This document shows, one piece after another, positions 21,947 to 46,617 of a stretch of DNA of 64,000 bases (its first letter is position 1; the number at the start of each line of letters is the position of its first letter). A program made the position numbers and the translations under genes. A model generated the notes under the pieces. It saw nothing but the letters and a program-made list of their open reading frames with translations, was not told the DNA's origin and searched no databases. Source of the DNA: Atrina japonica (lineage: Eukaryota > Mollusca > Bivalvia > Pterioida > Pinnidae); the NCBI GenBank assembly GCA_030159075.1, contig BROG01000938.1:146812-210811 (forward strand), read 5' to 3'.

Positions 21947-22535
21947 TCAGTTAAAAGGTATGACAATATCATATGGGTTAGAGTCATCAACATGGTGTTT
22001 TCCTGTAGTTTCGACTATATGCTTATCATCTGTCTTATCTATTAAGATTGGTTTTTCATTTTTCTCTTCAATTCTAATGAAATAAGGATCATCTATTATA
22101 TTTGGATTTTTTTCTATTGTAACATCGCTATAATGGGGGTTATTCTCCAGACAGGGGGTTTTAGACGTTGTTTTGATATTTTCTGGAACGCATTCACTCA
22201 GTAACTTCACTTCCATATAACCCGATTCATCCCCTGCTCTTAGAGATTCCTTTTTGTTTATAGTAACTTTTTCTCCGTCAAATTTGATATCACTGTATCC
22301 AGAATCCAAATTCTGTTTGTTATTAGAATTTACTTGTGTCTTCCGTTTGGACCCTGTTCTAAACTTTAAAGAAAATCTTGCCATTCTGGATTGCTTTTTA
22401 GATTTGACACGTGGTTTTATTTTCACGATGCCGCTTCTTGATTGGCGTGCATCATATGGTGTAGAATATTCTCCTGCACTGCTGGATCCTATTACGTCAC
22501 TCGGTTCAGCATACGGCACTTCCTCGTATTTTGTC
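21947..22535 (-). CDS. Receptor exon 8: cytoplasmic tail with ITSM/ITIM-like motifs
   Basis: The exon starts after ATATTTTACAG at 22535, completes the split Thr codon and runs 195 codons to TGA at 21947. It holds TKYEEV close to the membrane, a Lys/Arg-rich patch, two SGYxx(I/V) motifs whose YxxI/V cores are 22 residues apart, NPHYSDV another 25 residues on, and a C-terminal [10 protein letters not shown]. The open frame continues upstream through a CAA/CAT microsatellite, but that part is intron: the splice acceptor and the phase of exon 7 define the start. Confidence 0.82.
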
Positions 22536-22961
22536 CTGTAAAATATCGTATTGTTTAAGTTGTCTAGTCTCAACAACAACAACAACAACAACAACAGGAA
22601 CAACAAAAACAACAACAACATCAACAGCAACATCAACATCATCATCATCATCAATACAAACAACAACAACAATAATAATAATAAACACTATGTCATTTAT
22701 TATGCAATTTGCATTTCCGCGCCTGCTTTATTTGCATAATAAAAAAACTAACTGCGCCACAAGATAGGCCTACTGTAACACAGTATTTTTCAATATTTTT
22801 ATTCGTCAATCTCACCTGTCAGGTGAGATATTTGCCTGTAAAGGTAAAAATCCTGCAGGAAAATAAAATATCCTGCAGGAAATCGACAAAATTCCACAGG
22901 GTAATAACCGTCCTAAGGGATTTTTTTCTCCTATAGGAAAATAAATGTTGCTGTGTGCGCA

Positions 22962-23015
<54 letters not shown>

Positions 23016-25809: not shown

Positions 25810-25890
<81 letters not shown>

Positions 25891-26588: not shown

Positions 26589-26620
<32 letters not shown>

Positions 26621-27241: not shown

Positions 27242-27273
<32 letters not shown>

Positions 27274-30200
27274 AGGAGGAGTAGGATGGGGATGATGAAG
27301 AAAAAACGACGAAGAAGACGACGAAGACGATGATGATGATGATGATTTTGATGGACGAGTAATGTTTTAGAAGTACATAAATAAACAAAACTTACGTTGT
27401 ACAGCATCCAGTCAATTTACATATAACTACTGCAGTAAAAAGCAACGCTATGCCAGATCCAATAGTTATTCCGACCCACAGCATTCGGTTTCCTGAAAAA
27501 GTGTACAATAATTTCTGACTGTATAATCACGCATACAAAATTTGTCATGATTAATGGTTCATGAGAAGAAGATTTTTAAAGATGTACTAAGTTTTGGTCC
27601 TTTTTAGGGCCCTTATAGATCCTAGCCCTTTTTCATTCGCAAACTTTATGCGGCTTCAGATTGGGGTGATACAAGCCTAGTATGGTTTTAAATTGCCTAC
27701 TGGATAAAGAAATGAAAAATGTCTCAAATTTGACAATAAAAGGGGAAATAACTCCCATAAGGTGCGACCTAACAATTGCCTCTTGACTTTTTTGTAGATC
27801 TTTTCGTGCTGAACATTTTTGCTTCTTTCACTTTCTCTCCATCTATCATACTTTTCAAGTTGAAAGGAAAAAACTGTCTAAAACGTGAATAATTCACTTA
27901 GAAGGGAAAATAACTCCCACAAAGGGCAACGTACCAGTTTAGCCCCCTCATGGTTTTTGTAGATCTTTGCGCACTGAACATTTTTGCTTCACTTTTACTC
28001 TATCTGTTATACTTTTCAAGATAATGGGACAAAACAGCGCAAAACATGAAAAATCTACACAAAGGGGAAATAACTCACATAAGGGTTGACCTGACAATTT
28101 CCATCAAAATAAAATATTGGCAGATTTCTGCAAAATCGCTCATTTTCAGGAAACGGTTTATTTCTAGCTTTAATAAATTTGGAGATACATGCATTAAATC
28201 AAAAATATCTGCTGACTAATTCGCTCTATATTTAGCCATAACAGCCATATTTGGTCCTATCCTCTTTTAATCCAGTTTGGTTCAAAATGGTCCACTGGTT
28301 CTGGATTAGTAATAAAAAAAGTCTAAAATTTAACAAAAAAAACCTTATATTTTCCATTTACTTAGGTGTCTGTGACCTTAACCTTTGACCCCATGACCTT
28401 GGAATTTATTTCAAACTGATTTTTATATAATTCCCAACAACTTTCTCATATATCTTTGTATACAATAAGTCAATCAGTTTTGTGTTATGAAACAATTTGT
28501 AATACATTTGTATCCTGTGTCACTGAAGCGCCCCTAGTGGCTCGTTTAAGGACAGATTTCATTTTCGTTCACAAACTTTGTAGATATTGACTTAACAATC
28601 ATGCATACAAAATAAATCTGATCATTGGTTCATAAGAAGATGTTTAAAGATGTACAAAGTTTTGGTCCGATTTGGTCCCTTTTGTGGCCGCTATGGGTCC
28701 TAGCCCCTTTTCATTCGCAAACCTTATGCGGCTTTGCATGGGGATGACACAAGCCTAGTTTGGTTTAAAATGGCCTACCGGTTCAAGAACTTCAGAATAT
28801 TAAAAAAATTGTTTGAGTACCGTACTGCACTTGTAACATAATATCAATCCTTGATCAAGACTAGACAAGGCCGACATTGGAGTCTCGGCTTAATGCGGCA
28901 TACAATTTAATTATAATACAAAACATGCAAAAAAGGGGGTTAAAACAAATGCCCAAGACGATGGTTTCTGTCAATAAGACTTCAACAATTGCGCTCGAAT
29001 TTAAAATAAAAAAAAAATAAAGTTTCTAATAAACCGTGGTATCATACATGGGCAAAAAATAAACTAAATGCATTCCTAAATACGTCTAGGAGTAACCAGT
29101 GGTAAAAGATGACCGGTCCCATCTAAAAGGTCATTGACCCTCATAATCATGGAAAGTATTGGCTCAGTGAAATTATCAGAGGAAATTGAATATGTTCAAA
29201 GACTTACGCATTGTTTAACTTACTTACTCAGGTTACCTGAAAAATATATTTCAGATAGCCCGTACTAACAGATAGACCTGTGGGACCATATTTTTTTCTG
29301 GTGTGGGGGATCGTAGAACCCGCGGGGTAATACACAGGGAATTACGGTAAATTTAAAAATAATCTTAAGGTTAACCGACATGAAAATGTAGAATTAAAGG
29401 AATTCCAATATCGTAAATTTAATTTCAAAATTTCAAAATACTTGTAATTGTAATTTATTTTTAAATTTTAAAATTAGTTCGACAATAGACCATGAGAGAT
29501 TCACATTTTACGGGGCAATTTTATTGATCCCATTTAGACAAATATTTTGGAATATTTGCAACTTAAGTGTATTTCATTAGGAACCTGTTATGTGATACTA
29601 ACCTGATTTAGGCTGTGGGAGTTTGGTAGGAACCGACCTTTCGACTGAAGATGTAGGCGAAGTTTTGTTTTCATAAGTACTGGTGAGTTGAGGGCAAAGG
29701 ATAGATTCATTGAATCTTGAACTTATGTGTCTTACAGCTAGAACTCGACCTGAAAAATAATAGAATAATTAAGATTTTGTTCCTGGTTCCTACAGAGTAA
29801 CGTAACTACATCAACTTTCTATGATTGAATAATAGTCGAATCCTGATATATTGAAATCAAAGGGGAATGTATTCTTCTTTCGTGCAAATATTATCAACAA
29901 TACCAAAGTTATAATTTTACAAAAGAGACCAAAACAAATAATAAAGACGATCGTTTCTGTCAATAGACGTCATCAATTGAGTTCAAATTAATAAATATAA
30001 TATCAATTAATATGTATATTTCCGAAATAAAAAGTGGTACCATATAAGGTCATATGATAAGTATGAATGTATTGCCAAGTCCGAATAAGACGTATAAGAA
30101 GTACCCACTGTACAATGAATATTTTTTTTTTTTTTTTTTTTTTTGGAAGTTTAAGAATTTAGATGATACCATCTGAGCGAAATATTACTTTAATATAAAA

Positions 30201-33200
30201 CAAAACTCTGGTACCGAAATACCAGGTACTAGGTTTATGTATACCCTTGGGGGACTCAAACGATCTACCAGTAGTGGAAACGACCCAGTGGTTATAAATA
30301 TCAACAATACTTATGTTATATTTTTAGAAAAGAGACCAAAATAAAAGCTCAAGACCGTTTAAGCTGAGTTTGAATTTGATATAGATAAATATTTCCGAAA
30401 GAAAAAAGAGGATTCAAATTAACCGGATTATAATGGTAATGCAGAAATTTGGGCGGGAATTCAAAATCATTTCAAATAAAGTCGGAGTTCAATAAACATG
30501 TGATAGGGTTCAATATAAGTGGGTTCAACTGTATCTATTATCAATACGACAATAATTTCACTTTGGTTTGCTTAAATATATATTTTTAGATTTTTTATTA
30601 AGAATAATATATTTTACAGAAATGTTATTTAGTAAAAGGGGCACCAGCTGTGTTTACCCCAATAATTTGTTTTTCAATTTTTTCTACTTTTACTACTTGT
30701 ACTTGATGTACAATAACAAATAAGAGCTATATACAGGCATAAAAATATCTTATATTCCTATATATTTTGTGAAAATAAAGTCAGGCCTAGTGTGGTATTC
30801 ATATACAAAAAGTAAGGCTGAGTATTTCAATTGCAAGCGAAAAAGTGCCAAACCCGGGTTTCTGAAGCAATTTTCACAATATATATGGGAATTTAGGAAT
30901 TTTTATGGCTCTCATATTTCTTTTTGTTTGTTATTGTATTTCATTCTAAGTAGGAAATAAAGGGATTTGTTTGTTTGTTTATTGTTGTTTAACGTCCCAC
31001 TCAAGAATATTTCACTCATATGGAGACGTCACCAAATGCCGGTGAAGTGCTTCAAATTTTTTGGCACTTACGGCCATTGAGCAGTGAGAGTTCTTTAACC
31101 TGCCGACACCTTCTGTGACACGGGACCTCCAGTTTTTACTGGCTCCTCCGAAAGAAAGGAAACCAGCTTGTCGCCGGCGGGACTCGAACTCACGACCTCA
31201 CAATCCAGAGTCGAGCGCGCTACCGACTGAGCCAGGCCGGCTCGATATAAAGGGACATTTAAAAAAAGCTGATGCCCCTTTAAAAGAAAATGTTTTATGA
31301 TAAAAATGATAAATCGATTTTTTTAAAACTTTGTTAACGAACATCTTAAAACTGCTGTCATTTATAAATATTCTACAGTATAACTTTTCTACAATACACG
31401 AAAACACCAAAATAACATTTAACCAAGAAAAAATGTTTTTTACTCTATAGAAACGCACAGAATAACAAATGAGGTACGATAGTAAAAAACATGAAAGAAA
31501 TCTCAGGGCAAGTTTAGATTTAGAACGCCCAGTTACATCAAAAACTAATACCGATGATACAACGAAATATGGCATTAAGAAAAGAAGAACGAATCGTGAT
31601 TTGAAATACATGAATCCGACCAGATACACGAAGAACTGCACACAACAATACTATGAACAGAGCTATTTCGAAATGAAGAATGTCATGCGTTTTGTGTTTA
31701 CATAGTTTATACATGGAAAAATATTAATATGTATTACCTATTTCTTCACAACAAGTCGTCGTGCATTCGGGGCAATCGTTATCAGCTGTAATTCTAGTCC
31801 GTCTATGGTCTACAATAAAACTAGAAATCATACTATGACTCGTACTCAACATTAGAACCAATTGTAATTCATAGCTTTTCAAGTTAGACAATATTCCTGC
31901 AGCCACAAAAAGTTCCTCATATGTTTTATTTTCCGTTCTGTATTATGCCTCTCTTATTCGTATGTGAAAATGTTTTTACAGAGTGCACATTGACTTATGT
32001 CGATGTAGTTGGAGTTCTTTCACGTCACATATGGGCATTGGTTCAAATCTTACCCAAAAGACCCATGACTTTCAATTATTACGCGACCACATGGCGACGA
32101 AATGTTTGAGGAATTAACAGGCAACCACCCTAACAGTTTTGAAATACCACGTATGTACTGTAAAATATTTTTTTTCGCGATAAATTTATTTACGCGTAAT
32201 TTCACGAGAGCATCAGTCGCTAAAATAACATTATCGTATAATGAAGTATGAAACTTGTATGATGAAATGACATTTGAAATCGCAAAAATATCATCTTACG
32301 AATAAATTTATAACTTGCGTATCGCGAATTAAAGTCCCGGAAAAATTCCCGGAAAAATTCCCGGAAATATAGTACTAGATTTATTGACTGGTACACTTAC
32401 TGTATAGGGGAAAATAACCCGCGGTGTTAATATTCCCTATATTTACGGGTTGATAAATCCGCGAATTAAAGAAACAGTAAATAAGTATTTGAAAAATATA
32501 ATAAATATAATATATTGCTGACTACCATTTTTATGCTGCTATCAATCGAATTAAAAAAACAGCGATCATGTCAACAGAAACAAAATGGAGGAAGGGATTT
32601 AACCTTAACCCATTATCAACATTCATTAATTTTAAGTAGAGTCCATTATTGTGTTAAAGAGAACTAAAGGCCAATGGGCCACATCACTCACCTGAAGTGT
32701 ATTGGTATCTTACAAATATGGGATTCTCAAATTCACAAATTATTTTAACACTCCTTAGGAGTGGAGCAGACTTAAAAATGAATAAAAATGACAAAGCTGG
32801 AAAAAATGCCAAAAACATGTTAAAAACTAGTTTTCAAATTTATTCCAAAAACAGGAAATTGAATTATGCATTTATAAAAATCACTCAGATGCAAGTAGTC
32901 TTTCAATCATGCAGAAGTTCTGGAGAAGATTTTCAAAGAGAGGTAGGCCGAGGCCTCTTTTGTCCCACCTTGGGCAAATCGGGCCGAAATGAACAAACTT
33001 GGTAGACGACCTTGAGTACTTGCTTCCTATGACGTTTCATCAAAATCCCATCAGCGGTTTTTGAGGAAAAGTCGAAAATGTGGGAAATTATCCCCTTCAT
33101 TTTTGCAGTCATAAATTAATAAAAAATTCAAAAAATTAAATTTCAGCAAAATTCTTTCAGAAAAGCATTTATCTACCAAACCACAGGTAAACCATATGAA

Positions 33201-35647
33201 ATAATTGCATCATAATGAATAATAGGGGAGAAAATCAAAGAAATCATACAAAAATGAATGGAAATTACAAAGTCTAAAAATAAGTCAAAAACGCGTCAAA
33301 TATTTATTCTTCGATTTCAACGAAATTAACAAACTTGAATCATACATCTATGTAGATCACTCAGATATATTTAATTCTTCAATTCATGCAGCGGTTCTGG
33401 AGAAGAAGATTTTTAAAGAAGGGTACCCCCTGGGGCCTCTTTTACCCCACCCTGGATCCACCCCTGGGCAGATCGGGCCGAAATAAACAAATTTTGTAGA
33501 GGACCTTTTTCTACTTGCTTCCTATCAAGACAGACAGACAAACGACGGACAAAGGGCGATCAGAAAAGCTCACTTGAACCTTCCGTTCAGGTGAGATAAA
33601 AAGTAGAACAAAATTGTAAAAATTTGAATTTCTTACCGTCACAAACCAATGACTCACTGATCCAAAAATATGAACCTGTTTTATCTTTGAGAATATTATT
33701 CAGAGGTGTTACTCTTGTCATTAATTCACACGAACGGTTGGCTTCCGTGTATGTTGTCTTATTTAATGATACAGATTTGTCTGAAATAAACGTCAAAATA
33801 TATACAAGCGCGTATATTTCATATAAAATACCTCTATGCATTAGTTTAATATTGGATTTATCTTTGGCAACAAACATCAGGCCCGGTAAAGATTAATATT
33901 GTAAAATTTGTTTAGTGGTAAAGACAGATCAATTGAATTTTTCATTTTGAAATTGAGCTTACATAATGAATTTATTACTATGTGTTCATGTTATACTGCA
34001 TTCATTAAACGAGTTCAATAATTTGAAGAAGACAAGAGCCTTTAACGAATTTAAAATGAAATGCCCAGAGACTATATTTGCTCTACAACTTTGGAGTTTG
34101 AAAAATATCTTTTCTTGCCGTATGCAATTGTTTAAATAAGTCAAACTTAATATGGTCATACTCATTACCAATGTATAACTTTCAGTATGTATTATAATTC
34201 GCTTATCTTATTATAATTCCATTTTCATTAGCGTTAATTTCAAATGCAGACAAGTCAACCATGAAAATAAAAATATTTAATATTTTTTTTTATGAAAAAT
34301 CAATTAAAGAGGCATCAAAAATTATTTCGTGTTTTACAAGCAATACTGATGTTGGATAACAAATAAAATTTAAATACAGGCATAGACATTCTTATGTTCC
34401 TATATATTTTGTGAAAATAAGGCCAGATGCAGTGTCGTATGCAAAAAACAAAATAGTACTAAGATCGAATTAATCATTTGCAAACGAATAATTGCCAAAC
34501 CGAGACAATTTTCACAAAACTGCAGGAATTTAAGTATGCCTGTATATATCTTTTTTGTTGTTATTGTACATCAATTTAAGTTAGTGAAATAAGAAACAAA
34601 AATGTTTGGAAATAGACAGCTAATGTCCCTTTAAAGGCGAAAGATTGGAGTAATCGCAGTGCTGCTAGGTTTATTACCATGTATATAATATCATAAAACA
34701 GAATAAACATAGTTAGTTGCGTGATTAGCCCTTTCAATCCTACAGACCTAAATATACTTGTCTTAACAATACAAAAGAACATTACATTAAGATATTTAGG
34801 GGGTGAAAGGGTTAAATATCACATAATTTGAGAAATATATGACGTCACATTATTTTACGGGGACATAGTATGAGACAAAATACTTTAAAATATTGTTAAT
34901 TATCGATGTTCGAAATTGAAATATTTGTAGATTTCACCTACTTGAACAAATGTATGGAAGTTCTGTGGACTGATTGAAAGCTCTGACTTCTATGTAATCG
35001 GAGCATGTTGCTGAAATATATAAAAATATGACCAACTGAAAAAAAATATATGATTAACTCGAAACCCACATTTAACTGAATAAAAATTAGGCTTACCCTA
35101 GAAAAACGTTCTCACTCTCCATTGAATTTGTGTTAAGAGAAAAACTAGGATTAATTGAAAAAAGTAGGTTTGAACTTTTATTCACTGGAGAAAAACTGGG
35201 TTTAACTGATAAAAACTAGTTTTAATTCATTATTGTGACTTTGGCGTGCTTTATCAGTTAAACGTATTTTTTCTCAATGAAACCTAAATTTTTCCAGTTA
35301 AACCTAGTTTTTCTCAGCACACCCAACATTAACAAGAGAAAAATAGGTTTGACTGCTCTGGTTAATTTGTAACGCTTCTGAGAGCCGCTTATGCATTTTT
35401 AGCTGTTTAAATTCCAGTGACGGTACCGGATAATAAAGCTGCATTTTTATTTGAACAAACATGTAAGTAAACAAACGTGTAAGTAAACAAACGTGTAAGT
35501 AAACAAACATGTAAGTAAACAAACATTTTAAGTAAACAAGCACGAAAGAGCAGAACAAACTGTCCAGGGCCTTGGCAAAATAGTTTGCAAATCAAAAGGA
35601 TACGTCATGACCGCTAAAATGACGTCACTAAACATCTTCCTTACCTG

Positions 35648-35733
<86 letters not shown>

Positions 35734-38378
35734 GAAATCGTTTACACTGAACCCTCTTAAAAGGAAAAACAAATCGGTGTTCGTTTAAAATGAAATTCAT
35801 GTGCCAACCCAACGCTTTACTTTTTACTTTCAGTTCTCCGTAAACTTTTTAATTTAATTGCTTGAAATATCTGATTATTTGAAACAATTTTCTGGAACCG
35901 CTGAACTGTGAATGTGCTGATTTTACGACGGTTAATGTGAAATTATTCTTTTCCGGTAAATGAAACGCAGGTAAACTGTCTATATATATACGTGTATTTC
36001 AGACACGATATAATAATAAGACAGACTTCTTAAGCAATACTTAAACCTTCCATAGATACATGACTAGCATCGACAAAAGTTGGCTCTGTGGTATATTTCT
36101 ATGGTGTTGTCTGAAATAGATCTATTTGATCTATTATGGCAATAAACTCCCTTTACAGAATGTTTGTGATAGGCCTTTATTAAGGTATATTACCGATATG
36201 ATTATAAAATTTGATACGTAGAAATTCAATTAATTTGAAAAAAATAGATTGTATCATTGTAACCGTGTTCAAAAATATATATAAAATAATGGTAAAATAT
36301 AACATACCAAACTATCCGCTTACACTTTATGTGATTATTCAGAAATACATTTTATGCAGTACAAAAACATAAGTAAAATATGAAATGTTTTAGAAATAAA
36401 TTCTTAATATCATGATATTTTGAAAAATCGTTAGACGTACTAATACCATTGAATGATATGAATGTCTGTTAGAATTGAATGTACGACATGATCATAATAG
36501 ATCGTGTTTCAGAAAGCTGAACTTGTAAATTATCTCGAGCAACCCCAAGAGATAATCATGAAATGAAAAGAGTTTGTCTTGGCCACTTGATGCACGTGGA
36601 ATATTTACAAATGTAATCGTCAATAGGCAATTTCTCCAATGCTGGATTTTGTGTTTTTATATCGCCTACATAATCCTCATTTTGTATTCAATACTTTTGC
36701 AGTCTCTTTTTCTTCTAATCACCATAAACACGCATTACAGTGGAGTCGTCAAGGACAACGCAAAATAGACTAATAGAATCAACCCCTGACCTTGAGGGTA
36801 TGGCAAGGGAATCTCAATGTGAGGGTAATATTCTTGAATGACAAATTCGAGGATTGCCGACGGTTTGTTATTCAAGAAACATATCCCGAGGATTGAGATT
36901 CCTTTGTCATACCCTAAAGGTAGGGGTTGAATCTTTTTCTCCTATGTCTTAAATACATGTCTATGCATGTCTGTGTAGATCCACGGAGATCTATGTCAAA
37001 TCTGATATAACTAAGTACTGCATTCCAGAATCCACAGACGTCATAAATTGTCATATCGCGCGTAGCTTATCAATACCCTAGAGGTTGACAAGGAAATCAT
37101 TCCCCGTAAAAAGAGGGGAGGGGGATCTGTTAACCATGGGAGAAAGGCCACAGAACATCTGACATACAAGTCTTACGAGTCTTATAAAGGACCTACTGAA
37201 AATTAGATTAATCAAGTCCATAACATGTCAAAGGACAGGAGAAAGTTGAAGGCCATCAGGAATTTCTTATGTCGCTCTTGGAGTGATTTATTATTTATTT
37301 TGTTTATATTCTTATCACTTGACGCTCGACTGTTACTTTCAAAAACCATTTGTGATGGTCTAGGGGTAGAGTGTTGGACTCGTAAGCGGACAGTTCCGGG
37401 TTTGATTTCTGGTAGCAAGTCCTAGGATGTGAAAGTCAGGAGTGTTTCTAATGGGATTAATTCATGCACCACGTGGTACCCGATAACGTTTGTGCGGGAC
37501 TATTGTTTCTATTAGTGATGGAATGACGCTAGTAGACGATAACCCGCGGTAACGTCATTTCAGCGGGAAGATTACGTAGTGTTACGTTCCATCACGATCA
37601 GAGAAACTAATACCGCACAAGCGTTATCGGTTATCACCTAGTACATGAATTCGTTCCATTATACATGTACTTAAAACAGGATAAGATTAATCAGATAAAA
37701 TTATTAACTTGAGCAACGAGTTTTGTTTTAGCTTGATAAACGTTGACATGTAAGATTCTTTCAAGAATGGTACTGGCCACTGGACTCGTGGTAGAGCGTC
37801 CTACACACAAACAAAGTTCCCCGGTTTCGATTCCCAGACTTTTTTAACCCCAAAACACCAAATTTGATAAATAATGGTTGTTAAATGGTTCAATACTTGT
37901 CATTTCAGATATCTACCATACAACCAGTACGTCCTCTGCAAACAGAGATCCTAAACGCCCCAACATCCAGAGTGCTAACATGGCTCATTTTGTTGCATTT
38001 TTGATAAGCTTTTAAAAAAAACATGATCTCAAAAATTCCCCTGGGGGGGAACAAACAATTATAAGCCAGGGGACTAATATATTTTGTAAAAAGTGGTTGA
38101 GAAACCCAGTTTGGCACTTGATTAACTCAACGTTACCATTTGTATATGAATACCACACTGGACCGTACCTTATTTTCACAAAAAATATAGGAATACAAGA
38201 TTTTGTATGTCTGTGTCTCTTATTTGTTATTGTACATCAAGGAGATGCAGTAAAAGTAGAAAAAAATTCGAAATCAATTTTTGTAAACATAGCTAATAAT
38301 TATTTCTGTTTTTCTCATTATTTCATTTTTGTACTTTTTTTTGTTTATCTTTTGTTTTCTTATTGGCTTTTTATTTTA

Positions 38379-38453
<75 letters not shown>

Positions 38454-41047
38454 CACCCTATATATACCAGCGGGAAAAAAGAAACTGTAATTCCATTTAT
38501 AGAGTCATATACAAAATATTATGTTCCATTATGTATATCATTATTTAATATAATACATTGTCTTTCAATTCAAACATCAAATCACGGATTATGTCCATTA
38601 TGGTGGATACGAGCAGCCACTGAAAGTAAGAGGGTGCAAAAAGATTTCACAATTTCAATAGCGTGTATGACCGCCATTTGCACCTTCCGCTCAATCTCTG
38701 TTATTGAAACGAGGATGCCTCCTACACCAAGCTAACTTCGTAACACGGTGACGCCAGAGCACAACAGACCGGATAACAGGACGTCGAGAACGTACGTTGG
38801 CCTCTCGCAATCTGTTCCTTACGGTAGGAGCACTTATCAGTCGATTGCCAAGGATGCTTCTAGCGGTCATAGAAGCCGATTGATTACTAACCACGTGTCG
38901 TTTAGGCTCGAAACTCACGAAAATCGTGTTGTGGCCATCAAGGCGAACCGTACGCGATATTTAACAAATTGAGTACTCCAACACGAGTTTAGTATATTAA
39001 ACTATGCTTTAAGAGTAAAGAGAGACTCTGGTATGTCCTTTTAATGATTCTATATATAACACCGCAACAACTTACTAGTTACACCGTGATGCCCTTAATG
39101 ATCCCATATAACTCCGTAATGCACTTACTAATTTATATAAATACATAATGCACGCGATGCACTTACTGATTCTATATAACACCGCAATGCACTTACTGAT
39201 TCTATATAACACCGGAATGAACTTACTGATTCTATATAACACCGTGATGCACTTACTGATTCTATATAACACCGTGATGCACTTACTGATTCTATATAAC
39301 ACCGTGATGCACTTACTGATTCTAGATAACACCGTGATGCACTTACTGATTCTAGATAACACCGTGATGCACTTACTGATTCTATATAACACCGCAATGC
39401 ACTTATTGATTCTATATAACACCGCAATGCACTTACTGATTCTATATGACACCGTGATGCACTTACTGATTCTATATAACATTACAATGCACTTACTGAT
39501 TCTATATAACACCGCAATGAACTTACTGATTCTATATAACACCGTGATGCACTTACTGATTCTATATAACACCGTGATGCACTTACTGATTCTATATAAC
39601 ACTGCAATGCACTTACTGATTCTATATAACACCGCAATGCACTTACTGATTCTATATAACACCGCGATGCACTTACGGATTCTATATAACACCGCGATGC
39701 ACTTACTGATTCTATATAACACCGTGATGCACTTACTGATTCTATATAACACCGCAATGCACTTACTGATTCAATATAACACCGCAATTTACTTACTGAT
39801 TCTATATAACACCGAGATGCACTTACTGATTCTATATAACACCGTGATGCACTTACTGATTCAATATAACATTACAATGCACTTACTGATTCTATATAAC
39901 ACCGTGATGCACTTACTGATTCTATATAACACCGCAATGCACTTACTGATTCTATATAACACCGCAATGCACTTACTGATTCTATATAACACCGTGAAGC
40001 ACTTACTGATTCTATATAACACCGTGATGCACTTACTGATTCTATATAACACCGCAATGCACTTACTGATTCTATATAACACCGCAATGCACTTACTGAT
40101 TCTATATAACACCGCAATGCACTTACTGATTCTATATAACACCGTGATGCACTTACTGATTCTATATAACACCGTGAAGCACTTACTTGTACTATTCCCG
40201 CTTTGCGGAATGCATAGTAACCTTCTATTGGCAACAGTTGTATTAGAGCATATATCTTGCATTGAAAAAGACTGGACGAAAAACAACTTTTTATTTTTGC
40301 TTGAAAAATTTAACAACAATACCTAGGTCTGTAAGTTGTATGAGGAATTAGCAGAAAAAAATGCCCACATACGTCTTTGGAAGATAGCCGTTATAAAGAG
40401 GAGATAATTCCTGTAATCCGTAAGTATGTAATATAACACTGTAATGTACTTTTAAGGATTCTATGTATCAATATAATGCACGTAGTCATTTTATATAAAT
40501 CAATAATGCGTTTACATGATTCTAAATAACACCGCAACGCATTTTCTAAGTTCACAGCATAACATACGTACCATTCGCGTCTGTTTTACCGCCATGAATT
40601 ATTGTACTGTTGAATGTCAAATTGGAAAATATTGAGTCGCCATCACATATAGCTTCAGTAGCCTGACATATACCTGTAAATTATACAATACAATATGAAA
40701 TTGATAATGATGATAGTTGCTTAATATGACTTTTGAAGAGAGAAAGGAAAGCTTTGATGAAGCGTACAATCTAAATATCTAAATGGCTTATCTTGTGACG
40801 TTAAATAAGGACTCACAGGTCATAATTATCTATGGTATCTCTACTGACATTTACTTTAATAGAGGTTAATCATTAAACTAGAATTTGTTGTAAATGAATT
40901 TCCCTTTAACAGGGTGCAAAAATAGGGAGGACTGAGGACTTTTTCCTAGAATTTCTACGTCAACCAATTAAAGCATATATAATTCGACACACAACAATGC
41001 AGCGCCAACGGTATCTATCTATCTGTCTGTCTGTTTGTTTGTTTGTT

Positions 41048-41097
<50 letters not shown>

Positions 41098-44000
41098 TCA
41101 ATTAATTTATTTATTTATTTATCTGTCTGTCTATTGCAACACCTTTGACTGGCAAGACGTTTGAACATTTTGTTAGCAAAAGAGAGCAGATTAAAATCCT
41201 TAAAGCTGAACTAGGAAGCTTTTGAACGTCGAAAAATAATGCTTTGAAACATTCCCACTTCATCTCCCTTTACAACAAACATATTTGTAATTATTTCACC
41301 GAAAAATCAAGTTCCACAACAGGTATAAAGGAAGGATTAGTTATATTGGTCGTCATTGTATATCTGTTCCATATATGAAGTCCCAGTGGCGGAATTGAGT
41401 CATGCAAGTTTCTTCTTTCGTTAAGCAGTGAGGTGTTCCGAATAACCGGTAGAAAAAACATAACTCAGTGGTCGAATAACAGTGGGAAGCAGATCGCTTT
41501 GTTTGTGTTTTGGATGGTGCTTGATATTTATTGTAATGGAATAAATTTTGGATTTATTATGGTTGAACTAATCATTCTCTGTTTGTTGCTGTTTGTACGT
41601 TGCAGAAAACTTTACTTCAGGTACTGGTGTTTATTTTTGTCGAGAAGTACAGGTAAGACTAAGAGTCCGTGAGTTTTATTCAGTCTCAGGGACTTCGCAC
41701 GTTTCGCGTTGCGAGTACAGATATACAATGACGACCAATATAACTAATCCGCCTTTTATACCTGTTGTGGGACTTGTTTTCCAGTGAAACAATTACAAAT
41801 ATGTCTTCTGTGTGGGGAGATGAAGTGGGAATGTTTCAAAACATTTTATTCAACACATTTTTATTCAAAGTTCCTAAGCTTTTTATCTTCCTAGTCCAGC
41901 TTTAATCAGAAGAACACATGATTCAAATCGTAAGTAGACTAGCATACTACTAGAATCTTTAATAATAAGAGCAGTTAATTCGATTTGTTGAAAAGGCGAA
42001 AACGAGCTCGACTTTTTTTTAAAGTAGGACACTTGATTCGAATTATAGAGCAGAGAAGACCGGGATTCTTAGAAAGATGTAATAGTTTTGTATCGAATTA
42101 TTAGGCAGAAATAATTTAGAAGGACATTGTATTCGGATTAAGATTGTTTGTTTATTGTTGTTTAACGTCCCACTCGAGAATATTTCACTCATATGGAGAC
42201 GTCACCAAATGCCGGTGAAGGGCTTCAAAGTTTGGCCTATGCTCGGCACTTACGGCCATTGAGCAGTAGGGTTCTTTAACGTGCCAACACCTACTGTGAC
42301 ACGGGACCTCCAGCTTTTACTGTCTCATCCGAAAGACAGGAAACAACCTGTCGCCGGCGGGACTCGAACTCACGACCTCACGATCCAGAGTCGAGCGCGC
42401 TACCGACTGAGCCAGGCCGGCTCTCGGATTAAGAATAAACCGCTATTTATCTTTGACCTTTTAACAACTTACGACTTTGTTGCCATCATCGAAATCTGGT
42501 GGGAAATTAATACTGATCAACATTATATTTAAGAGTTCCTTCCAAACAGATATCAGGTTTCAAAAAGGTTTTGGCAAAGTCGAAGTGGAGGAGGAGGGTG
42601 TGACTGTGATGTATTCGAATGAAATCTAATAATGTACGAAGTTATGAAATATCAATTATACAAATTTTTCAAATCTTGAATTGTCTGGTAGATACATCAA
42701 ACGCATAATTTATCTATACGTTATTTATAGACCACCATTTTCAAACAAAAACGGATTCGAAACCGTTTATTTATCGATGTATAGGTAACGCACATGCTTC
42801 AACCTCCCAAGAAATACTTGTCACAGGTGGTCTCCTTCTTATCTCCATTATATTTAAAGAGTGTTTTACGCCACACCCATTAACATTTCAGTTCAGTTCA
42901 GTGGTGGCGGACAGGTTTTTATGGTGAAGGAGAGAACACGGTTGCAATGCACCCGGAAAGATACCAACGGGCTTCCTTAAGTAAACTGGCAAACTTTATC
43001 CCAAAATCAGCTCAGTTTCCAGCGATGTTTGACACTGCGCTATTTAATAAGTAAGAGATTTCGTGGTTCAAAGTGCAATGCTCTACCTACGGCCACAGAT
43101 GCACCATATCCATGTGAACACAAATGCCACTGATGGTTATGGTCCTACACAATATGTTAAATGCCCCACACATTCTCCAGGTCAAACTTTGGACATTTTG
43201 AAAACAACGGATAACAGCACCATAATTAATGACAGTCCGATTGACTTTTGGCCCTCATCTTAATGATTCAACTGGGAACATATCTGTGGATCATCTTGCC
43301 ATACTAGCGATGATGCGTTCTGCTATTCCTTGTCATCAAAGTAAATTAGTCACCTATCGTAAACTCCGTGCTACATCGTTGGAAAAGATTTCAATGATGA
43401 CTATGAATTATCAGTTATCCTTAAATATCATTAACAACACCAAAGTTATTGGGTTTTTTTTTCTAAAGAGGCTAATAATGCTCAAGGGGATTGTTTCTGT
43501 CAATAAGACTTCATCGGGTAAGCTCGAATTTGATATAAATGCATATTTCCGAAAGAAAAAGTGGTATCATACAAGGCCAAATGATAAATCTAAATGTATT
43601 GCAAAATCTGTCTAAGAGTACTCAATGTAAACATAAATGTCTCCGTTTTTGAGAAGTATGGAATTTATTTGGTGCTATCTGCGCTAAAATTACTTTAGTA
43701 TAAAATAATCGGCTGACACCAAAATGCCCGATTAAATCATGCAATGGCTTTGTAGCCGATTAAGTTTAATTCTTACAAAAGTGATATTAGGGATATCATA
43801 GACGAACATGCACATCTAAAAACAATAGGCAATTACTTTCAGAGCAAATTGTGCTTGGTACAATGAGGATATTCATAGCGGCAAATGTACATGCGTACAC
43901 TGGCAGAATAATGCAAAACGTGAGAGAAATTCACTTTCAGATGTACAAACAGAAGATCGCCACTATAAAAATTAATCTATAATGCCAAAAGACTATTAGT

Positions 44001-46109
44001 ACCGGGAAAAAGAGAATGTTACTCTGGTAACAAAAACCTATCACAGCTGTCCAATATGCTTGGTAAATATTGCTGTTCAGTTGTTGGTTTTTGTTTTTTA
44101 TTCTGCATTTCCATTTGTCCAGAGACGGTCACGTGTTCTACCGTTTAAAATGAAATCACACTGTAAACGGAATAATTTATCATATTGCGCTGCTATGACG
44201 TCACAAAACTGTGTTAGCTGAATTTCATTTAGCGCCAAATTTTCTGACTGCATGGAAAAGTGAGACAAAAAACTTGTCAACTCTCTTTTAATGGACGATG
44301 TTTTGTTAAATCAAAATGTAATAAAGCGACTATTGCACTACTTTTGGTTCGATATGAGAATTTATGGAGTACAAAAACAATATCAACCTTGGCTTGTATT
44401 ATACGTATTAAAGGTGAATACTAACATTGAAGTTTAAGGGAAGGACGAAGAAATAACCGTAGAGGACAGAATAATGAACAAAGTTAAAATATGCATTAAG
44501 ATTGGAGTATGCAAATTGGCAATCCAAATTGATCGTTTCAGAGTAAACTTGTGGTTGTCCAAATTGGATTGTCTTATGTGATGTCATGTTGAACAACCAG
44601 TAGTTGTGGTCGTCCAAATTGACAGCCTTGTGTCATGGACAACCAGTATTTGTGGTCGTTCACATTGACTTGTCTTGTGTGATGTCATGTTGAACAACCA
44701 GTAGTTGTGGTCGTCCAAATTGACAGCCTTGTGTCATGGACAACAAGTAGTTGTGGCCGTCTAAATTAACAACCAGTAGTTGCTCAACATATTGATATTG
44801 TCCCATTCAAATAAGATGGCGGGGCAGAGTAACGTTTTGATTATCATATGGATGATTCTACTCACTTTTCGGTTATGACAAGCTGTACGGGAATACGTTT
44901 TATTGTCATGTTATAATGGACTTGACTTTTGATTATCGGTTGGTACTTCTTCCATTTAAATGCTTACTGGATACTATATTATGTATGATAAGGAACTTAT
45001 GACAAGTAGGAAGAATTACTCTAGTCGGTGTAATTTTAAAGTTATTATTTATTACCTAAAATTTAAACTCGTCCAGTTCAAAAAATGGTTCCCAAGATTC
45101 AACCACGCTAGGTTATATGTTTTTACTATAGACATTTAAGCTTATTGTACAAACACCCATTTTTGTAATGACTGTATTATGTTAAACGGTCAAGAGTGAT
45201 CCGACATATTGGTACGACACACTTGCATACATATTGTCACTTCTGCTAGTGCTTTTGATACTGTAAATTTGTAAATTTTTGCGGGGGTTTATTTCTAAGA
45301 TACACAGTTTCTACATTTTTTCGCGAGATGATATTTTCGCTATTTCAAATGTCCATTTCATCATACTTTTATCATACGTCGTAACACAATTTTGTTCGCG
45401 AACAAGAGCTTTCGCGAAATTACGAGTAAACAAAACCTGATTCACAGTAATCAGTAATTCATTTATGTATAAACTGATCGTAAATTTTATTACCTATACT
45501 TTCTATCTGTATAATTTATGGACATCCCCACTTTCAACCAGAAAGGAAGGATAATTAATTGCACGTTTGCACGAGACATGTTAATGGAGTTTATATAAAC
45601 ATTATAAACGACGAAGACGAGGACGATGATGATGATGATTATGGTGATGCTGCTGATGATGAAGATGATGACGACGACGACGATGATGTGAATATATATA
45701 TATACATGATATATAGTAAGATAAAGACAAATCTATAAAAAAAAGTCTGAAGTAAATATAGATGAAACAGAACACATCATTGCGTTATATAAGTGTATGT
45801 TTATAATATCATCTTACTAAACCGGAAGTTTCAAACAGTAAATACATCCTTTGATCCAGACAGAATGGATAAACTAGATAGATATATAATTAATGGCTTT
45901 ATGTCTAAAGTTGAATGACCGTCATTGTTTTAGCTTGATTTGAGTTCCTTTTACATTGTTTTAAATAGACATTACGGTTTATTATATCTTAACCAAGCCT
46001 GAATATCCGTGATAAGCATGTAGAAATTACAAAGCAGCATTTATATGACTAACAGTACATACATACATACATACATACATACATACATACATACATAAAA
46101 TATAGATAA

Positions 46110-46178
<69 letters not shown>

Positions 46179-46239
46179 CATACATACATACATATATACA
46201 TACAGACAGACAGGCTTCAATTAAATGTATTGACCATTT

Positions 46240-46280
<41 letters not shown>

Positions 46281-46617
46281 AAAATGGAAGACGAACAGTT
46301 TTGAGAGGTAGATAGACCGAAAGAAAGCTACATAGATAGGTTTATATATAGATCGCAAGCAAGCTAATTGGATAGATAGATAGATAGATAGATAGATAGA
46401 CAGACAGATAAGTAAAGAAGAAGATCTCACAATTAAAATATCTGATGTACCATGCTATGTTATGACTTTTTGATACCATACCCTTTATAGAATTGATATT
46501 TCTTTCCATTACTGTTCTATTTCATTTCTCGTACTTACCGCCAGAAGACGTTAATCCGAACACAAAAATCGCAAAATAACACAGATACAATCTAGCTATG
46601 TCAGTTTTTCGCAACAT
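21947..46617 (-). CDS. Type I membrane receptor with ITIM/ITSM-like tail (8 exons)
   Basis: Exons on the minus strand: 46617-46539, 40673-40572, 35010-34942, 33780-33637, 31809-31738, 29749-29603, 27492-27396, 22535-21947. Together they give 1299 bases, 432 residues and one open frame; introns 1-6 are phase 1 and intron 7 is phase 2. Residues 1-26 are a signal peptide. Residues 27-208 are an ectodomain with 11 cysteines and many N-x-S/T sites. The end of exon 3 (C..LPYIC) and start of exon 4 (YTEANRSC...YFWI) look C-type-lectin-like, but I cannot name a family. Residues 209-229 are the membrane helix. The tail (230-432) has a basic stretch (275-302) and tyrosine motifs TKYEEV (Y240), SGYSDI (Y317), SGYMEV (Y343), NPHYSDV (Y372) and PYDIV (Y425). 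In known receptors such motifs recruit SH2-domain phosphatases; an inhibitory immune role here is inference. A possible AATAAA lies at 21704-21699. Confidence 0.78.
22572..22685 (+). repeat. CAA / CAT / ATA trinucleotide repeat
   Basis: A compound CAA, CAT and AAT repeat lies just upstream (minus-strand sense) of the acceptor of receptor exon 8. It makes the exon's frame appear to extend into a run of Leu/Met/Val, which is not protein. Confidence 0.9.
22792..22945. repeat. Cluster of small palindromes
   Basis: TCTCACCTGTCAGGTGAGA (9-base arms) is followed by TCCTGCAGGAAAAT, TCCTGCAGGAAATC and TCCTATAGGAAAAT, three decamer palindromes of the form TCCTnnAGGA, plus a degenerate TCCTAAGGGAT. Confidence 0.6.
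22963..23012 (+). repeat. CT microsatellite
   Basis: About 24 CT units followed by CCATCAGCTGGACAGCTCTG. Nearly the same flank (CAGTTGGACAGCTCTGGAT) follows the TC run at 25813-25886, so this microsatellite sits in a dispersed repeat. Confidence 0.9.
23020..25050. other. Receptor intron 7, AT-rich, nothing recognised
   Basis: No coding block, RNA gene or mobile element is seen in this part of intron 7. Confidence 0.45.
25056..25163. repeat. Paired perfect palindromes
   Basis: GGAGAATTTTATATGCC and its exact complement flank a short CCAGCTGC centre. About 40 bases later AGAGAATTTTATAAAATTCTC repeats the same stem core as a second palindrome. Confidence 0.75.
25813..25886 (+). repeat. TC microsatellite
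   Basis: About 36 TC units with the flank CAGTTGGACAGCTCTGGATA shared with the CT tract at 22963. Confidence 0.95.
26541..26706 (+). repeat. GAA / GAT compound trinucleotide repeat
   Basis: GAA, GAT and GGT units over about 165 bases. Poly-Ser and poly-Phe frames on the minus strand are artefacts. Confidence 0.95.
27150..27240 (+). mobile_element. Truncated Penelope-like 3' end with GAT tail
   Basis: GAGGTCCGTGTTTGTCTATT, TTTACCGGATTTGTATC and TTTGGTATCTGAAATTTTTA match the last 90 bases of the dispersed 3' segment. A GAT repeat begins at its 3' end, which may be the element's tail or slippage at it. Confidence 0.55.
27241..27345 (+). repeat. GAT / GAC trinucleotide repeat
   Basis: About 10 GAT units, an imperfect GA-rich centre, then GAC and GAT units. 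It lies in intron 7, about 50 bases from the donor of exon 7. Confidence 0.9.
27396..27492 (-). CDS. Receptor exon 7: transmembrane helix
   Basis: This 97-base exon with acceptor TTTTTCAG and donor GTAAGT enters in phase 1 and leaves in phase 2. Residues 209-229 form a hydrophobic helix (core [17 protein letters not shown]). A Lys and two cysteines (KLTGCC) follow, a likely cytosolic stop and possible palmitoylation site. No charged residue lies within the helix, so pairing with an ITAM adaptor is not suggested. Confidence 0.8.
27570..28800 (+). repeat. Intron 6 repeat block with internal duplications
   Basis: A segment of about 150 bases (AAGATGTACTAAGTTTTGGT... TTCATTCGCAAACTTTATGC... GATACAAGCCTAGT) at 27570-27720 recurs at 28650-28800. 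Between them, blocks of about 165 bases with GGGGAAATAACTCCCATAAG and TTTTTGTAGATCTTT-GCTGAACATTTTTGCTTC occur two and a half times. It looks like a decayed non-coding mobile element of unknown type. Confidence 0.6.
28850..29060 (+). repeat. Dispersed repeat family C, copy
   Basis: GGTTTCTGTCAATAAGACTT, CAACAATTGCGCTCGAATTT and GTGGTATCATACATGG follow the family order. Confidence 0.55.
29603..29749 (-). CDS. Receptor exon 6: Ser/Thr/Pro stalk
   Basis: This 147-base phase 1-1 exon after TTTTTCAG, with donor GTTAGT, codes residues 156-205. After one cysteine (Cys174) it becomes a Thr/Ser/Pro-rich stalk ([18 protein letters not shown]) directly before the membrane, the usual place for an O-glycosylated stem. 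Two sequons (NES, NKT) are present. Confidence 0.75.
29820..30185 (+). repeat. Dispersed repeat family C, copy with poly-T
   Basis: CGATCGTTTCTGTCAATAGA, GTCATCAATTGAGTTCAAAT and AAAAAGTGGTACCATATAAG are present. A tract of 23 T lies inside at 30122-30144. A shorter copy follows at 30300-30420. Confidence 0.55.
30690..30967 (+). repeat. Dispersed repeat family A, copy 2, split by a SINE
   Basis: It matches the copies at 8745 and 34355. It breaks off at the SINE insertion and resumes after it (31246-31290, AAAAGCTGATGCCCCTTTAA against ACAGCTAATGTCCCTTTAAA in the 34-kb copy). Confidence 0.65.
30968..31245 (-). mobile_element. tRNA-derived SINE, copy 4, nested, with target-site duplication
   Basis: Nearly full length on the minus strand: GCCGGCCTGGCTCAGTCGGT head, GTGAGTTCGAGTCCCGCC B box, tail ending in repeated AAACA. 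Flanks AATAAAGGGATTT and ATATAAAGGGACATTT form an imperfect target-site duplication. It interrupts a family A repeat, so it is the younger of the two. Confidence 0.88.
31738..31809 (-). CDS. Receptor exon 5: cysteine-rich segment
   Basis: This 72-base phase 1-1 exon, residues 132-156, has a tight cysteine cluster ([12 protein letters not shown]: Cys144, 147, 151, 152). The acceptor used is TAGTTTTATTGTAG and the donor is GTAATA. A second acceptor (GGCTGCAG, exon start 31898) is also in phase and would add about 30 residues, so the 5' edge is less certain than the frame. Confidence 0.65.
   Translation of the reverse strand, partial: TIDGLELQLITIAPNARRLVVKK
32155..32470. repeat. Dispersed repeat family E, copy 1
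   Basis: ACTGTAAAATATTTTTTTTCGCG, TAATTTCACGAGAGC, TGAAATGACATTTGAAATCG and CGCGAATTAAAG blocks resemble, in the opposite orientation, 45255-45432. Three short GGAAAAATTCCC-like units lie at 32338-32370. Confidence 0.5.
32687..33595. mobile_element. Hairpin-ended non-autonomous element
   Basis: The ends CTCACCTGAA (32687-32696) and TTCAGGTGAG (33586-33595) are exact reverse complements. The right end also folds on itself: CTCACTTGAAC (33569-33579), a five-base loop, then GTTCAGGTGAG. The inside has two related blocks (GGGCAAATCGGGCCGAAAT at 32963 and GGGCAGATCGGGCCGAAAT at 33466, each followed by AACAAA and a TTGCTTCCTAT). No coding frame. Exon 4 of the receptor begins 40 bases further on. 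Confidence 0.6.
33637..33780 (-). CDS. Receptor exon 4: lectin-like segment
   Basis: This 144-base phase 1-1 exon is bounded by TTTATTTCAG and GTAAGA. Residues 84-132 contain [13 protein letters not shown] and [13 protein letters not shown]. The order aromatic, E-A-N, Cys, then FWI resembles the first half of a C-type-lectin-like or related invertebrate sugar-binding fold. It carries three sequons (NKS across the junction with exon 3, NKT, NRS). Confidence 0.75.
34355..34640 (+). repeat. Dispersed repeat family A, copy 3
   Basis: Contains TATGTTCCTATATATTTTGT, GAAAATAAGGCCAGATGCAG, TTGCAAACGAATAATTGCCA and GCTAATGTCCCTTTAAAGGC, in the same order as the other copies, without a SINE insertion. 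Confidence 0.65.
34942..35010 (-). CDS. Receptor exon 3: lectin-like segment
   Basis: This 69-base phase 1-1 exon after ATATATTTCAG codes residues 61-84, ending in ELPYICS, like the close of a C-type-lectin-like fold (P-Y/F-I-C). The donor chosen is A/GTAGGT, because it keeps phase 1. An alternative GTGAAA four bases further would break the frame. Confidence 0.68.
35090..35350. repeat. Inverted AAACTAGGTTTAACTG-type repeats
   Basis: Several units of GAGAAAAACTGGGTTTAACT in one orientation are followed by units of AGTTAAACCTAGTTTTTCTC in the other, giving a potential fold-back of about 80 bases per arm. Confidence 0.55.
35452..35540 (+). repeat. 16-bp minisatellite
   Basis: Five units of about GTAAGTAAACAAACGT. 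The frame-independent Leu/Phe/Tyr/Val repeats on the minus strand are by-products. Confidence 0.85.
35649..35730 (+). repeat. AC / TA compound microsatellite
   Basis: About 21 AC units pass directly into about 20 TA units. Confidence 0.95.
36777..36934. mobile_element. Palindromic MITE
   Basis: The left arm (GAATCAACCCCTGACCTTGA... GGGAATCTCAATG... TCTTGAATGACAAA) and right arm (TTTGTTATTCAAGA... GATTGAGATTCC... AGGTAGGGGTTGAATC) are reverse complements over about 65 bases, with a 20-base centre. Confidence 0.7.
37358..37425 (+). other. tRNA-like sequence
   Basis: GATGGTCTAGGGGTAGAGTG resembles an A box, and GTTCCGGGTTTGATTTC a degenerate B box. Spacing is tRNA-like, but no CCA-side acceptor stem pairs well. 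Probably the head of a SINE or a tRNA pseudogene. Confidence 0.35.
37455..37655. mobile_element. Fold-back element
   Basis: The left arm (ATTAATTCATGCACCACGTG, CGATAACGTTTGTGCGGGAC, TAGTGATGGAATG) mirrors the right arm (GTTCCATCACGATC, ACCGCACAAGCGTTATCGG, GTACATGAATTCG) over about 70 bases at roughly three quarters identity. Confidence 0.65.
37775..37843 (+). other. tRNA-like sequence
   Basis: TGGACTCGTGGTAGAGCGTC (A-box-like) and CCCCGGTTTCGATTCCC (B-box-like) are about 30 bases apart. No clean cloverleaf was found by eye. Confidence 0.35.
38150..38262 (-). repeat. Dispersed repeat family A, partial reversed copy
   Basis: The plus strand reads CCTTATTTTCACAAAAAATA, TGTCTCTTATTTGTTATTGT and ACATCAAGGAGATGCAGTAA-like blocks, the complement of the family A core. 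Confidence 0.55.
38380..38451 (+). repeat. TG microsatellite
   Basis: About 36 TG units within receptor intron 2. Confidence 0.95.
38600..38990 (-). pseudogene. Tc1/mariner-type transposase remnant
   Basis: The minus strand (38918-38691) reads [20 protein letters not shown], then [17 protein letters not shown] and [14 protein letters not shown]. This is the helix-turn-helix and linker region of Tc1-like transposases (the IS-xxTVRxRLREAG...RRP...LxxRHRxxRLxWxxxH pattern). The DDE catalytic region is absent. It lies within intron 2 of the receptor gene, in the same orientation as that gene. Confidence 0.75.
39157..40190 (+). repeat. 30-bp satellite array
   Basis: About 34 units of ATGCACTTACTGATTCTATA plus TAACACCGTG or TAACACCGCA. 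Variants alternate mainly between CCGTG and CCGCA. Rare units have ACATTACA (39480 and 39870, 13 units apart). Degenerate units trail off on both sides (39030-39150 and 40420-40550). Because 30 is a multiple of three, long open frames (for example [10 protein letters not shown] repeated) appear on both strands; I treat these as non-coding. Confidence 0.95.
40572..40673 (-). CDS. Receptor exon 2: N-terminal ectodomain
   Basis: Acceptor TTTACAG and donor GTACGT bound a 102-base phase 1-1 exon coding residues 27-61. It holds Cys29 and Cys36 and the sequons NLT and NST; a third sequon, NAT, forms across the junction with exon 3. It is open in only one frame that matches both neighbours. Confidence 0.75.
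41013..41127 (+). repeat. TCTA / TCTG / TTTG tetranucleotide repeat
   Basis: Runs of ATCT, GTCT, GTTT and ATTT units in blocks. Confidence 0.9.
41191..41905. mobile_element. Long inverted-repeat (fold-back) element
   Basis: The left arm (41191-41420) contains CACTTCATCTCCCTTTACAA, AACAGGTATAAAGGAAGGAT and GGTCGTCATTGTATATCTG. The right arm (41670-41905) contains their complements in reverse order (CAGATATACAATGACGACC, TCCGCCTTTTATACCTGTT, GGGGAGATGAAGTGGGAATG). The arms are about 230 bases with a 250-base centre that holds no recognisable gene. Confidence 0.8.
42144..42423 (-). mobile_element. tRNA-derived SINE, copy 5, with target-site duplication
   Basis: Nearly full length on the minus strand, flanked by exact 11-base repeats TCGGATTAAGA at 42133-42143 and 42424-42434. 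Inside are the GTGAGTTCGAGTCCCGCC B box and a GGACGTTAAACAACAATAAA tail. Confidence 0.92.
42540..44540. other. Receptor intron 1, mostly unrecognised
   Basis: Apart from the family C copy, I see no gene. Open frames at 43063-43263 and 43229-43615 lack domains, and the second overlaps the repeat. Confidence 0.4.
43400..43640 (+). repeat. Dispersed repeat family C, copy
   Basis: GGGGATTGTTTCTGTCAATA, AGACTTCATCGGGTAAGCTC and AAAGTGGTATCATACAAGGC, in the order of the 29-kb copies. Confidence 0.6.
44548..44790 (+). repeat. 101-bp tandem repeat
   Basis: About two and a half units containing TGATGTCATGTTGAACAACC, AGTAGTTGTGGTCGTCCAAA and TTGACAGCCTTGTGTCATGG, offset by 101 bases with very few changes. 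Confidence 0.85.
44800..45110 (+). repeat. Dispersed repeat family F, copy 2
   Basis: The partner of 21600-21860. It also carries TTATAATGGACTTGACTTTT, which occurs behind the 61-kb Penelope-like element, so it may itself be made from such an element's end. Confidence 0.55.
45255..45432. repeat. Dispersed repeat family E, copy 2
   Basis: TTTTTTCGCGAGATGATATT, GCTATTTCAAATGTCCATTT and AAGAGCTTTCGCGAAATTAC resemble the reverse complement of 32155-32330. Confidence 0.5.
45610..45690 (+). repeat. GAC / GAT repeat
   Basis: Interrupted GAC, GAG and GAT units. Confidence 0.85.
46058..46205 (+). repeat. ATAC / TA compound microsatellite
   Basis: About ten ATAC units, an interruption, about 29 TA units, then ATAC again. 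GA (46243-46279) and GATA (46370-46400) runs follow within 200 bases, all in intron 1 close to exon 1. Confidence 0.95.
46539..46617 (-). CDS. Receptor exon 1: signal peptide
   Basis: ATG at 46617 opens a 26-codon stretch with a basic start (MLRKTDIAR), a hydrophobic core ([13 protein letters not shown]) and a small-residue end (TSSGG), a typical signal peptide. It ends in phase 1 at the consensus donor GTAAGT. Sequence upstream of the ATG shows no clear TATA box. Confidence 0.75.

Follow-up and report, generated by a model that had tools for sequence, protein, structure and literature searches.

We report here a believable gene for a cell-surface receptor on the minus strand of the window, a stretch of 64,000 nucleotides from contig BROG01000938.1 of the bivalve Atrina japonica. 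The cytoplasmic tail of the predicted receptor is rich in tyrosine motifs and, as far as the sequences go, the motif kept between this tail and that of a probable paralogue in the same genome (contig C804) is a tandem YxxPxD pair, which a preliminary description of the DNA did not name. Our tentative preference is for a phosphotyrosine docking receptor that would recruit both RasGAP and an SHP phosphatase, and so damp Ras/ERK and kinase signalling. What the sequences show is the gene model, the signs of membrane topology, the motifs themselves, the occurrence of the YxxPxD pair in C804 as well, and exon-level signs of both effector genes.

The receptor gene

The predicted receptor gene consists of eight exons between positions 21947 and 46617, and splice joining followed by translation gives a product of exactly 432 amino acids in an unbroken frame. 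All seven introns have GT-AG boundaries; six junctions are in phase 1 and the last, between exons 7 and 8, is in phase 2. The eight-exon, 432-residue type I protein of the preliminary description is thus borne out in junctions, phase and length. The product comprises a signal peptide, an ectodomain, a Ser/Thr/Pro stem, a single membrane helix (about residues 211-229) and a cytoplasmic tail. Since the lengths of exons 2-6 are each a multiple of three, the frame of the tail would survive the skipping of any one of them. Two polyadenylation-type hexamers, at 21899 and 21704, lie at most 250 bases 3' of the stop codon. The exons are as follows.

46539..46617, minus strand: exon 1, signal peptide with the start codon, phase-1 donor; the sole minus-strand match of the first-exon scan
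40572..40673, minus strand: exon 2, ectodomain, two cysteines and sequons; recovered by the splice-matrix scan
34942..35010, minus strand: exon 3, ectodomain, two cysteines; the weakest score among the four exons recovered
33637..33780, minus strand: exon 4, ectodomain, two cysteines and three sequons (one across the exon start); recovered by the scan
31738..31809, minus strand: exon 5, ectodomain, cysteine cluster CPECTTTCC; low splice scores, and of the eight exons the least secure
29603..29749, minus strand: exon 6, Ser/Thr/Pro stem including Cys174; the best-scoring scan candidate
27396..27492, minus strand: exon 7, transmembrane helix, phase-2 donor AC/GTAAGT; identical donor in C804
21947..22535, minus strand: exon 8, stop codon and the 195 complete codons of the cytoplasmic tail; the one exon set apart by the composition test

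Support for these exons beyond chance comes from two scans. A scan for first exons (a hydrophobic core followed by a phase-1 donor) over 40.7-64 kb of the minus strand gave one match, exon 1. A scan for exons in phase 1 at both ends, with approximate generic splice matrices and the phase borrowed from the gene model itself, over 22.5-47 kb, gave seven candidates on the minus strand, four of which are exons 2, 3, 4 and 6, and one on the plus strand; exon 5 fell below the thresholds and exon 7, being asymmetric, was outside the scan's reach. In amino-acid composition none of 191 decoys equalled or bettered exon 8, and exons 1-7 taken singly were not separable from decoys (fraction as good 0.16-0.45). 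Outside the model, an exon-like stretch in phase 1 at both ends occupies 36791-36913 (minus strand) of intron 2; it may be a skipped exon or may have arisen by chance. The minus-strand scan gave two others of this type, at 32692-32796 and 22816-22872.

Tyrosine motifs of the tail

The motifs of the tail, with their residues in the receptor, are listed below; ITIM and ITSM denote the immunoreceptor tyrosine-based inhibitory and switch motifs.

22517..22534, minus strand: TKYEEV, residues 238-243, ITSM-like; not in paralogue C804
22496..22513, minus strand: YAEPSD, residues 245-250, first YxxPxD; counterpart in C804 YSVPND
22451..22468, minus strand: YSTPYD, residues 260-265, second YxxPxD; counterpart in C804 YSTPYD
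22286..22303, minus strand: SGYSDI, residues 315-320, ITIM-like (Y317)
22208..22225, minus strand: SGYMEV, residues 341-346, ITIM-like (Y343)
22121..22141, minus strand: NPHYSDV, residues 369-375, NPxY and YxxV; NPxY not in paralogue C804
21962..21976, minus strand: PYDIV, residues 424-428, C-terminal Yxx[VI]; the C804 tail terminates in APYSCINIDF

TKYEEV, SGYSDI, SGYMEV and NPHYSDV are all present as first described, and the gaps that separate the YxxI/V cores are 22 and 25 residues long. Chance levels were taken from 100,000 shuffles of the 200-residue tail, and ITIMs were scored by the consensus [SIVL]xYxx[IVL]. Two or more ITIMs arise with P = 0.06 and one or more ITSMs with P = 0.08, while at least two ITIMs together with at least one ITSM arise with P = 0.004; the five Yxx-hydrophobic sites and the single NPxY have P = 0.02 and P = 0.035, respectively. 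The named ITIM and ITSM motifs are therefore only modestly unusual in a tail rich in tyrosine motifs, and the ITIM claim alone is weak.

A tandem YxxPxD pair in a probable paralogue

C804, found by searching the genome with the receptor, is probably one paralogue: it has a similar exon 7/8 layout, and the phase-2 donor AC/GTAAGT is common to both transmembrane exons. Both tails hold two YxxPxD motifs 15 residues apart (at residues 245 and 260 in the receptor); shuffling gives at least two with P = 7.4e-4 and 2.4e-4 for the two tails, which belong to genes that are not independent. Yxx[VI] cores are also in excess, with five in the receptor (P = 0.0035) and four in C804 (P = 0.016). C804 meets the ITIM consensus once (VVYNNV), against twice in the receptor, and chance gives at least one with P = 0.30; a TKYEEV-type ITSM and an NPxY are absent from its tail. 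Outside the YxxPxD block the tails are unalignable, with shuffles as good in 1094 of 2000 local and 1921 of 2000 global comparisons. Whether relatives keep the tyrosine motifs was proposed at the outset as a test, and C804 gives a mixed answer: it has four Yxx[VI] cores against five and one ITIM-consensus site against two, and TKYEEV and NPxY are absent.

Other candidate relatives were set aside. The pattern TAYWSNACNCCNTAYGAY occurs at 19 places in the genome, against 41 for a reversed-pattern control, which is chance level, and among the 19 a receptor-tail frame was recognised by eye only in C938, the receptor, and C804. L049, the longest other frame (524 amino acids, with YRTPYD), and the repeats L045 and L046 are otherwise unlike the receptor. 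C802, a match to the C804 tail, is without YxxPxD over the 236 bases read and was dropped; the further back-search matches of that tail (C2, C158, C269 and C210) are weak. Across the 15 remaining stretches of the receptor's own contig there was one match at chance level (E 2.5) with an internal stop.

The ectodomain

All nine N-glycosylation sequons lie in the 180-residue ectodomain (shuffle mean 2.9, P = 0.00025) and none in the tail (shuffle mean 2.1, P = 0.10). The ectodomain contains 11 cysteines, between residues 29 and 174, an odd number, so that one may be free or link a dimer. A protein-database search with the full receptor returned 3779 candidates, none at E<=1e-3, and with the ectodomain 78 candidates, none at E<=10, by a method blind to relatives without common 5-residue words or beyond its length limits. 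As a control, the frame of a long interspersed nuclear element (LINE) reverse transcriptase in the window matched 1165 proteins at E<=1e-10, and at least one mollusc, Pinctada imbricata, is represented in the database. Pfam gave no family for the whole protein, the EMI and EGF families included, and nothing usable for exon 4, part of exon 5 or exon 8 alone; a sequence search of the PDB with the whole protein and with exon 4 alone gave no usable match. An immunoglobulin (Ig)-like ectodomain was not detected in these Pfam and PDB searches, which a strongly diverged Ig fold would escape. The earlier statement that the ectodomain is not an Ig fold agrees with them.

Several leads on exon 4 were dismissed: a Pfam match to Bfc (E 0.08) was below the cut-off, three PDB matches (heparin lyase twice and one antibody chain) all had E above 1, and the idea of half a C-type lectin domain found no Lectin_C match in Pfam with either the whole protein or exon 4 alone. 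The fold predicted for exon 4 alone was uninformative (mean predicted local distance difference test score, pLDDT, 53; predicted template modelling score, pTM, 0.27). A genome search with 130 residues of the ectodomain gave seven matches, four of them the receptor's own exons and the others (C18, C1297 and C101) weak. The match at C1297:42947-43078 (minus strand; E 2.1, 36% over query residues 67-111, in an open frame of 95 amino acids) may be a further paralogue.

Candidate effectors and a model for the receptor

On C891, SH2 matches at 160937, 162737 and 163619 are followed on the same strand by protein tyrosine phosphatase matches at 172161 and 174125, an exon order that suggests an SHP-like gene and makes an ITIM route possible. 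On C796, SH2 matches at 231746 and 224380 followed by a same-strand RasGAP match at 205427 more weakly suggest a RasGAP-like gene. A match to KCAKYWPD on C50, where no SH2 match was found, was not taken as SHP.

Aspartate at +5 is part of the RasGAP consensus, and the PDGF-receptor site reads YMAPYD. The SH2 domains of p120RasGAP have a strong preference for proline at +3, and the partners that bind it tightly have paired pYxxP sites, at a spacing of 18 residues in p190RhoGAP and 19-28 in Dok; dissociation constants are 10 nM for p190RhoGAP and 30 nM for Dok1, against 2 uM for EphB4 with a spacing of 6 residues (PMC10470053). The peptide for the p190RhoGAP site reads EEENI(pY)SVPHDST (PMC6938330), and the C804 tail reads IRYSVPND. 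A full-text literature search for the string YXXPXD returned no paper.

These data suggest a model in which ligand binding would let Src-type kinases phosphorylate the receptor tail. The membrane-proximal YxxPxD pair could then recruit p120RasGAP via its two SH2 domains, while the Yxx[VI] sites farther along the tail, including the two that match the ITIM consensus, could recruit an SHP-type phosphatase, and the two effectors would jointly dampen Ras/ERK and kinase signalling inside the receptor-bearing cell. Phosphorylation, binding, inhibition and any immune role of the receptor are all inferred. It is quite unlikely, in our estimate, that the model extends to an undescribed mollusc family with an unclassed ectodomain, in which YxxPxD docks directly to p120RasGAP and the distal Yxx[VI] sites to SHP, giving two brakes without Dok.

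A number of observations count against the model. The kinship of C804 was found at a genome-wide E of 1.3, and in the back-search with its tail the receptor came at E = 0.72, behind C802 (0.03), C2 (0.11) and C158 (0.31); the shuffle P-values concern a pair selected from a genome search, with a single paralogue. The transmembrane exon of C804 is entered in phase 0 and the receptor's in phase 1, and the 3.9 kb between the contig start and that exon of C804 yielded no recognised ectodomain exon. The motif classes were picked post hoc, with P-values uncorrected for the classes tried. Both effector genes are proposed from exon order, and the RasGAP match on C796 scores poorly (E 7.5e-4; 28.3 bits, equal to the cut-off of 28.3; three internal stops). 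YxxP is also read by the SH2 domains of Crk, Nck and chimaerin. Finally, the YxxPxD spacing of 15 is below the at least 18 residues of the tight dual-SH2 partners, which counts against tight dual engagement of RasGAP.

Alternative readings

The preliminary description saw a classical inhibitory ITIM/ITSM receptor, in which SGYSDI and SGYMEV would recruit an SHP phosphatase and the YxxPxD pair would be secondary. That proposal is partly supported: a glycosylated single-pass receptor with a tyrosine-motif-rich tail is in agreement with the data, the exon order on C891 is SHP-like, the two consensus sites are suitably spaced, their joint occurrence with an ITSM exceeds chance, and the oyster receptors CgSiglec-1 and IgIT are reported to be inhibitory. 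The ITIMs alone do not exceed chance to the same degree, and C804 keeps the motifs only in part, with one ITIM at a level expected by chance, no ITSM and a distal tail that cannot be aligned, so we regard this reading as doubtful. An engulfment or endocytic receptor like CED-1, Draper or MEGF10 is unlikely. Crk-type adaptors bind YxxP and would link it to actin, and PTB (phosphotyrosine-binding) adaptors and AP-2 would take NPHY and the Yxx-hydrophobic sites, in keeping with motif preferences of Crk and AP-2; the tandem YxxP, the NPxY and the five Yxx-hydrophobic sites fit such a tail. The tails of MEGF10, Draper and CED-1 pair NPxY with an immunoreceptor tyrosine-based activation motif (ITAM) or YxxL (PMC8092387). 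Against it, C804 is without NPxY, Pfam found no EGF or EMI family, and the core spacings of 22 and 25 exceed the spacing within an ITAM.

It is improbable that the receptor is real but its tyrosine motifs are mostly accidents of a disordered tail, serving adhesion or another ligand role. Single motif classes are of weak significance, the distal tail has no alignable counterpart in C804 and the kinship itself stands on weak genome-wide scores; yet the YxxPxD block is the very part conserved, and Yxx[VI] cores are in excess in both tails. Very improbable is the possibility that the exons are wrongly joined, and not one transcript, or that the gene is dead. Exons 1-7 are singly not coding-like and the splice sites of exon 5 are weak, but the scans recover exons 1, 2, 3, 4 and 6, the sequons fall where an ectodomain should have them and the exon 7/8 layout recurs in C804. 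On the docking model the receptor would function like a phosphotyrosine docking receptor, perhaps an inhibitory one, and it is not placed in any named receptor family.

Other features of the window

The stretch at 14601-14775 (plus strand), bounded by AG and GT, may be an exon of a precursor for a small secreted peptide; it encodes a signal peptide followed by LFYTISNGNNYPRIG-KR, and its product could give an amidated ...NNYPRI peptide of PRXamide type. According to a mollusc survey, myomodulin precursors encode PRXamide peptides (PMC6425005). The LINE-type reverse transcriptase (RVT_1, Pfam) lies at 53070-53822 (plus strand), with more open frames over 52.4-55.5 kb, and its top named relative among the matches listed is from Pinctada imbricata (61%). 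A second reverse transcriptase-like fragment at 61155-61751 (plus strand; RVT_1 E 0.0016, below the cut-off) is presumably Penelope-like. Intron 2 of the receptor gene holds, at 38694-38960 (minus strand), a remnant like the DNA-binding domain of a Tc3-type transposase (E 2.5e-5, below the curated cut-off). Matches resembling tRNA were seen on the minus strand at 31169-31241, 42349-42421 and 63525-63592, the third of which was also assigned to tRNA-Lys. A similar longer repeat encloses at least the first two, and all appear to be heads of a tRNA-derived short interspersed nuclear element (SINE), probably a molluscan V-SINE. Arrays of tandem 30- and 38-base units occupy 39153-40187 (receptor intron 2), 58468-60742 and 62074-62592.

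Comparison with known receptors

The inhibitory immune receptors of vertebrates have been mapped in detail, and those with ITIMs and ITSMs recruit SHP. The receptor resembles them in being type I and in having two ITIM sites, with YxxI/V 26 and 29 residues apart from tyrosine to tyrosine; unlike them it has no detected Ig or lectin family, carries a membrane-proximal YxxPxD pair, and its ITIMs are only partly kept in C804. Apart from Draper, most of the invertebrate cases in the literature cited here belong to the Ig superfamily. Oyster CgSiglec-1 has a pair of Ig domains, and the title of its paper names inhibitory activity (PMC5877582); IgIT has inhibitory activity named in a title only, and a review that lists it describes CgIgIT2 as having five Ig domains and an ITAM (PMC11999971). 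CgSiglec-1 and IgIT are likewise mollusc surface receptors, but with Ig domains where ours has an ectodomain matching no family. Further reports of ITIMs in invertebrates concern Botryllus FcoR and candidate Hydractinia Alr proteins (PMC12065747). The Draper-II ITIM is bound by Corkscrew (PMC9008705, PMC8092387), and Draper, MEGF10 and CED-1 share with the receptor a tail of NPxY and Yxx-hydrophobic sites, but no EGF or EMI family was found in the receptor, and NPxY is missing in C804.

Should the docking model prove true, it would suggest that inhibitory wiring had more than one origin and drew on different effectors, here in a small unclassed receptor with a conserved motif pointing to RasGAP. 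The paired pYxxP sites are shared with p190RhoGAP, Dok1 and EphB4, and the YSVPHD of p190RhoGAP is near the YSVPND of C804 (PMC10470053, PMC6938330); spacing differs (18, 19-28 and 6, against 15), and the receptor is not a kinase, a GAP or an adaptor. CD200R, which is inhibitory without an ITIM and acts on RasGAP through Dok2 (PMC5828319), offers a parallel for inhibition via RasGAP and not ITIM phosphatases, but relies on an adaptor where we propose direct docking at YxxPxD.
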